Shown here: piece by piece, positions 207-51,510 of the stretch
How positions within the stretch are numbered: the first letter of the stretch is position 1
Layout: every line of letters starts with the position of its first letter
Source of the DNA: Prorocentrum cordatum
Taxonomy: Eukaryota > Sar > Dinophyceae > Prorocentrales > Prorocentraceae
Assembly: GCA_963575745.1 (NCBI GenBank)
Contig: CAUYUJ010019261.1
Coordinates: 20,001-84,000, forward strand
DNA: 64,000 nucleotides
Direction of reading: 5' to 3'
The notes under the pieces: model-generated
Seen by the model: the letters and a program-made list of their open reading frames with translations, nothing else
Databases searched by the model: none
What the model was told of the DNA's origin: nothing
Position numbers and translations under genes: made by a program

Positions 207-278
207 GCTCCCACGGCGACGATCGGCGTGGAGTTCGCCACGCGGACGGTGCCGCTGGCCGTCGGGGGCACTGTCAAG
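207..278 (+). CDS. RAB11: Rab11-like exon a (switch I)
   Basis: 24 codons. They start APTATIGVEFATRT and end in VGGTVK, the switch I/effector loop and beta-2/beta-3 strands of a Rab11-type GTPase. The threonine before IGVEF is the Mg-contacting switch I residue. The proposed acceptor is GAG|GCT (AG at 205-206) and the donor AAG|GTGCGG, a canonical GT. The start is the least certain point because an upstream AG (176 or 179) would add a glycine run with no Rab counterpart. The next coding piece, AQIWD, follows VK in Rab11, so the junction is in phase 0. Confidence 0.82.

Positions 279-51510: not shown

Follow-up and report, generated by a model that had tools for sequence, protein, structure and literature searches.

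Nine small exons of a Rab GTPase gene

The window, by which we mean the whole 64,000-nucleotide stretch of Prorocentrum cordatum DNA that was analysed, carries on its plus strand, between positions 207 and 51510, nine exons of a gene that we assign to Rab11B. The exons are 27-72 bp long (72, 27, 39, 72, 42, 48, 57, 54 and 39 bp, every one divisible by 3), are consistent in order, strand and frame, and total 450 bp, which is 0.88% of the 51,304 bp that they span. Joined, they encode residues 38-187 of a 213-residue database protein (P0001), with 150 of 150 positions identical. A first-pass annotation, made from the letters of the DNA, had proposed a Rab11-type gene of nine exons in a single frame, with about 450 coding bases making up less than 1% of 51.3 kb and a largest intron of more than 18.6 kb; this layout is borne out to the base, the largest intron (intron 3) measuring 18,610 bp, and the end that it gave for exon 9, at 51510, is upheld by the full-length relative P0001. 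The features are as follows.

207..278, plus strand: exon 1 in the window, APTATIGVEFATRTVPLAVGGTVK, switch I region, acceptor GAG/G and donor GT; identical to P0001 residues 38-61
279..3784, plus strand: intron 1, 3506 bp, GT-AG
3785..3811, plus strand: exon 2, AQIWDTAGQ, G3 motif, switch II; matches P0001
3812..11649, plus strand: intron 2, 7838 bp, GA-AG
11650..11688, plus strand: exon 3, ERYRAITSAHYRR; matches P0001
11689..30298, plus strand: intron 3, 18610 bp, GC-AG, holding a retroelement
21734..29629, plus strand: retroelement in intron 3, 7.9 kb, recognised by direct repeats and a reverse-transcriptase ORF
30299..30370, plus strand: exon 4, AVGALLVYDVTKSSTFSNCAKWME; matches P0001
30371..38532, plus strand: intron 4, 8162 bp, GA-AG
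38533..38574, plus strand: exon 5, ELRQNAEPDIVIML; matches P0001
38575..45166, plus strand: intron 5, 6592 bp, GC-AG
45167..45214, plus strand: exon 6, VGNKFDLAEKNPSDRQ, G4 NKxD plus the longer loop of Rab11B type; matches P0001
45215..48943, plus strand: intron 6, 3729 bp, GC-AG
48944..49000, plus strand: exon 7, VYYDAAAEFARQNGLFFAE; matches P0001
49001..50356, plus strand: intron 7, 1356 bp, GC-AG
50357..50410, plus strand: exon 8, ASAVTAYNVKHVFEHLLQ, G5 SA motif, alpha 5; matches P0001
50411..51471, plus strand: intron 8, 1061 bp, GT-AG
51472..51510, plus strand: exon 9, EIYNQSSKGRGRE, with a GC donor after it; residues 175-187 of P0001 are identical
51511..64000, plus strand: first part of intron 9, whose length is 12,490 bp or more provided that the final 26 residues are encoded beyond the window

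In a database search, the first 145 joined residues were 100% identical, over the whole query, to P0001, which carries the name 'unnamed protein product [Prorocentrum cordatum]' and is drawn from ncbi, jgi, uniref, nr and mmetsp; we took it as one entry, representing a 90%-identity cluster with 4 sequences and 7 contigs. MMETSP is a transcriptome project, and this source suggests indirect transcript evidence for the gene. The NCBI member could itself have been predicted from the same locus, in which case independence would be confined to the MMETSP and JGI ones. Two further proteins of 213 residues, P0002 and P0003, match the 145-residue query at 99% and 97% identity; they lie on JGI contigs no longer than 966 and 1000 bases, which leave no room for such introns, and are thus most likely cDNA of close relatives. 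The joined protein matches Pfam Ras (E=5e-43), and the Rab GTPase motifs G3 (DTAGQ), G4 (NKxD) and G5 (SA) fall in exons 2, 6 and 8, respectively. By sequence, the nearest solved structures are those of Rab11 proteins, with 3bfk, a small GTPase Rab11, in first place (E=2e-43). Viral contigs searched with P0001 gave no match, nor, as expected, did plasmids searched with one exon.

From these comparisons we are highly confident that the window is an internal part of the P. cordatum Rab11B gene and presents nine consecutive exons separated by spliceosomal introns of 1.1-18.6 kb. The exons could instead belong to a non-expressed duplicate or pseudogene, with the cDNA derived from a second, near-identical Rab11B gene; extensive gene duplication is reported in the P. 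cordatum genome paper (PMC10666404), and the cluster behind P0001 comprises several sequences and contigs. This reading is nonetheless very unlikely, as there is no frameshift, stop or lost splice site over the 450 bp and eight introns, and no second entry named P. cordatum occurs among the best 120 of 7983 hits, in which many rows are nameless and names are shortened.

Placement in the Rab11 family and the two ends of the protein

The first-pass annotation had called the gene a Rab11-type GTPase and expected the joined exons to find Rab11/RabA as their best match. The family is right, and the best match, at full identity, is P0001, but the protein groups with the alveolate-specific Rab11B and not with Rab11A/RabA, both in a tree and in its signature residues. 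The tree contained 10 Rab11A/RabA rows and 14 of Rab11B-like type; apart from P0001, its 23 other database rows were hand-picked from 240 hits. The window protein falls inside a 15-row Rab11B clade (the 14 Rab11B-like rows and itself) with support of 100/100, in a tree that has 13 weak inner branches out of 23 and a RAB1A outgroup on a very long branch, and that we read as unrooted. In the corresponding group table the Rab11B label needs 2 changes because the window row, labelled separately, lies within the clade; 2 changes are likewise needed for the Rab11A label, and the Rab11A rows are not shown as one group.

Signature residues were counted over the best 120 of 7983 hits (P0001-P0120, Rab11B-like) and the best 120 of 7999 (P0121-P0240, Rab11A-like). 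The P-loop reads GDATVGKT in 106/120 of the former and GDSGVGKS in 109/120 of the latter; the stretch after NKxD is 8 residues long in 118/120 Rab11B-like and 4 residues long in 120/120 Rab11A-like hits; and EASAV, found in 96/120 of the Rab11B-like set, contrasts with ETSAL in 119/120 of the Rab11A-like set. The window protein has SAHYRRAVGAL, the 8-residue NKxD loop and EASAV, all Rab11B-like forms. Together, these residues and the tree of hand-picked rows indicate that the gene encodes alveolate-specific Rab11B. That it is an ordinary Rab11A/RabA, as the Rab11 structures nearest to it by sequence might suggest, is highly improbable given its placement in the Rab11B clade and its fit to the Rab11B-like set in all three signature regions.

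The Rab11b of Toxoplasma gondii (P0119; PMC2912401) is 79% identical to the window protein over the query. It shares with P0001 the P-loop GDATVGKT, the SAHYRRAVGALLVYDVT block and EPDIVIM, and with the P. cordatum protein the stretch ASAVTA[Y/F]NVKH[V/I]FEHLLQEIYN; the two differ at the C-terminus, which is CDSNAC in P0001 and CCG in T. gondii, and the host of the P. cordatum protein, unlike that of T. gondii Rab11b, is a free-living alga. In the Toxoplasma study of Agop-Nersesian et al. 2010 (PMC2912401), Rab11B is described as alveolate-specific and as necessary for the inner membrane complex to receive its vesicles from the Golgi. In P. cordatum, the dinoflagellate spliceosome would remove the introns to leave an mRNA with a 642-nt coding part, and the product, by analogy with Toxoplasma Rab11B, would be a GTP-switched Rab steering Golgi-derived vesicles to the cortical alveoli. 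These alveoli would correspond in P. cordatum to the amphiesmal vesicles, for which homology predicts the same vesicle route. Among the titles listed in a literature search on dinoflagellates and Rab11B, none concerned Rab11B function in this group. The corrected identity is of interest in that Rab11B is required in Toxoplasma for building cortical membrane sacs (PMC2912401), and at this locus raw DNA of repeat-like appearance has yielded the exact position of a core membrane-traffic gene from a bloom-forming alga.

Both ends of the protein are encoded by exons that we did not find in the window. To the left, a GDSGVGKS exon had been predicted, and to the right one ending in CC; P0001 has GDATVGKT at its P-loop (GxxxxGK[ST]) and ends in CDSNAC, an unusual cysteine spacing. 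Its portions beyond the window exons are ...GDLPR on the left and DSAQSPSGITVGERGGQKQGCDSNAC on the right. When the N-terminal 37 residues were sought, their best score was reached by 79 of 200 shuffles in positions 1-206 and by 34 of 60 over the whole window; for the C-terminal 26 residues, the best score in 51511-64000 (29) was reached by 166 of 200 shuffles, and that over the whole window by 41 of 60. Such a search could miss very short split exons. The full length of the Rab11B gene is probably above 63 kb, barring a tail split into undetectably short pieces.

The C-termini of the 120 best Rab11B-like hits comprise 59 C-x4-C, 14 C-x3-C, 5 C-x2-C, 1 C-x5-C, 16 CC, 6 C-x1-C, 9 CC or CxC followed by 1-3 residues, and 10 otherwise; a cysteine spacing of 2-5 occurs in 0/120 of the best Rab11A/RabA-like hits. 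These counts, over P0001-P0240, take the database proteins as deposited, complete or not. Among the titles listed on the prenylation of widely spaced cysteine ends, none dealt with the point.

Detection of the exons

The window was searched in translation on both strands with human Rab11A as query. Exons 1-5 and 7 were the six top-scoring places over both strands, and exon 6 was located by its NKxD motif. The match to exon 8 was no better than chance in this search; exons 8 and 9 were fixed by reading the flanking sequence. The nine exon peptides score 50-125 at their own places, against at most 37 elsewhere on the plus strand, where the second-best places are at chance level and give no sign of duplicate (mutually exclusive) exons. 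Simple repeats fill the window, but chance or low-complexity matches in such GC-rich DNA are refuted as a source of the exons, since shuffled exon peptides (60 each) score at most 48, and exact identity, order and splice sites all agree with real exons.

The claim that simple ORF calling would see none of this gene is nearly right. Seven of the nine exons (all except 7 and 8) lie in frame within chance ORFs of at least 150 residues, none of which is the gene. A single one of these seven ORFs, that around exon 4, is flagged by ORF calling combined with Pfam, and barely so (Ras, 21.8 bits against a cut-off of 21.6, E=1.5e-4); of the other six, 4 have no Pfam match at all and 2 have below-cut-off matches to other families. 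As for further genes, 10 ORFs chosen by eye from a list of 123 for not being dominated by repeats had no Pfam match, in a screen that small-exon genes could escape. In another Pfam comparison, with seven ORFs, 6 lacked a match and the repeat-rich ORF 7989-9275 had only below-cut-off matches. The window had no Rfam match at gathering score and no tRNA.

Introns, their splice sites and their contents

For each of the eight complete introns we considered every cut point up to 12 bases away at which the protein stays the same (3-6 per intron), and in 8/8 a single placement combined a G[T/C/A] donor with an AG acceptor. Random intron position pairs do so in 5-10% of draws, and the product of the eight per-intron chances is 8.9e-10, independence assumed. 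The donors are GT in 2, GC in 4 and GA in 2 introns, and in all eight the acceptor AG is followed by G, as is characteristic of dinoflagellate spliceosomal introns. Counting the acceptor before exon 1, the window has five GAG/G and four CAG/G acceptors; in most eukaryotes GAG makes a weak acceptor. Intron G+C is 57-63%, and the mean intron length is 6357 bp (50,854/8).

In the P. cordatum genome paper, G+C is 59.7%, the mean intron 4709 bp and the mean gene 24,462 bp, with donors GT 24.7, GC 51.4 and GA 23.8% and AGG acceptors at 79.7% (PMC10666404). Rab11B likewise has long introns, GT, GC and GA donors in the same proportions, AG/G acceptors and high G+C; its splice signals are those of P. 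cordatum. It departs from the averages given there (PMC10666404) in its mean exon of 50 bp versus 239.9 bp, its intron density of one per 56 coding bases versus about 286 (2798/9.8), and its coding share of 0.88% versus about 11% (2798/24462), the last two being divisions of averages. Single introns of tens of kilobases are known from other dinoflagellates, such as one of 26,372 bp in C. cohnii (cited in PMC11453091), so the 18.6-kb intron 3 is no record; here, in contrast to the C. cohnii case, eight introns of 1-19 kb lie within one small gene. The surprise voiced in the first-pass annotation was therefore overstated, since published data make long introns with GC and GA donors the rule in P. 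cordatum. The layout is of a published kind taken to an extreme, and it is the intron density that stands out. Rab11B is accordingly a good test gene for gene finders aware of GC and GA donors and for dinoflagellate intron insertion sites.

All eight introns are in phase 0. The joined 450 bp contain nine AG/G sites (7 in phase 0, none in phase 1 and 2 in phase 2), of which introns occupy 6/7 in phase 0 and 0/2 in phase 2; the two remaining introns lie at AGG/G and CTG/G. The coding sequence has a GC3 of 93%, so that AG is the usual ending of codons for lysine, glutamine and glutamate, and phase 0 is natural for AG/G. The uniform phase, and hence the whole-codon exons, may need no further cause. 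We suggest, tentatively and with considerable doubt, that introns have nearly saturated the AG/G insertion sites available in this coding sequence; if so, Rab11B would be a worked example of proto-splice-site-targeted intron gain, nearly completed. Causation might also run in the opposite direction, the exon flanks having been shaped by splicing after intron insertion. Among the titles listed in a literature search on dinoflagellate intron phase, none dealt with the point.

Introner elements are enriched in P. cordatum introns, according to the genome paper (PMC10666404), and the many introns at AG/G-like sites here would fit introner-driven gain in dinoflagellates (Roy et al. 2023, as cited in PMC11453091). 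Unlike in that model, the Rab11B introns show no evident introner end repeats: inverted repeats 8-20 nt long and no more than 30 bases from the intron ends were found in 1/8 introns (an 8-mer, purine-rich GGAGGGAG) and in 2/56 mismatched end pairs. An introner origin of these eight introns is thus rejected, end repeats not standing out from the mismatched controls; older, eroded introners might still be their source. In a self-comparison of the window, filtered for low complexity and limited to pieces of 80 bp or longer separated by more than 300 bp, the sole pair joining two different introns was 1180-1534 in intron 1 with 55922-56291 in the intron after exon 9, a G+C-rich tandem repeat of the CCTCTTGGGGG type, 80% identical between the two.

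The view that the window would pass as empty repeat DNA needs a qualification, as intron 3 contains the retroelement. Its direct repeats, 21734-22301 and 29062-29629, are identical at 566 of 568 positions and lack TG..CA ends; this near-identity suggests a recent insertion that would have formed part of the growth of intron 3. The ORF at 24786-27017 has 19 database homologues (P0241-P0259). RVT_1 was matched by 4 of 13 aligned rows (the window copy and 12 of the 19 homologues), at best with 1.5e-8; the window copy had no Pfam match of its own, and a profile of the family found no solved structure. By way of its homologues, then, the element appears to carry a reverse transcriptase. A second ORF, 27131-28744, contains by eye an HxxR...Y-like stretch resembling the motif of tyrosine recombinases, and had no Pfam or NCBIfam recombinase match. 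The element may be DIRS/Ngaro-like; one paper on dinoflagellate retrotransposons (PMC5890265) reportedly mentions DIRS. Directly after the 5' direct repeat lie about 7 copies of a 155-bp unit (22304-23397).

Other repeats were seen in the intron after exon 9. These include a 2.4-kb array of the hexamer AATGGT (52105-54480) and a T-rich run of 335 bases (55153-55487). Downstream, at 56677-63466, blocks of about 210-720 bp are repeated directly at 77-95% identity, a degenerate duplication mixed with TTG repeats.
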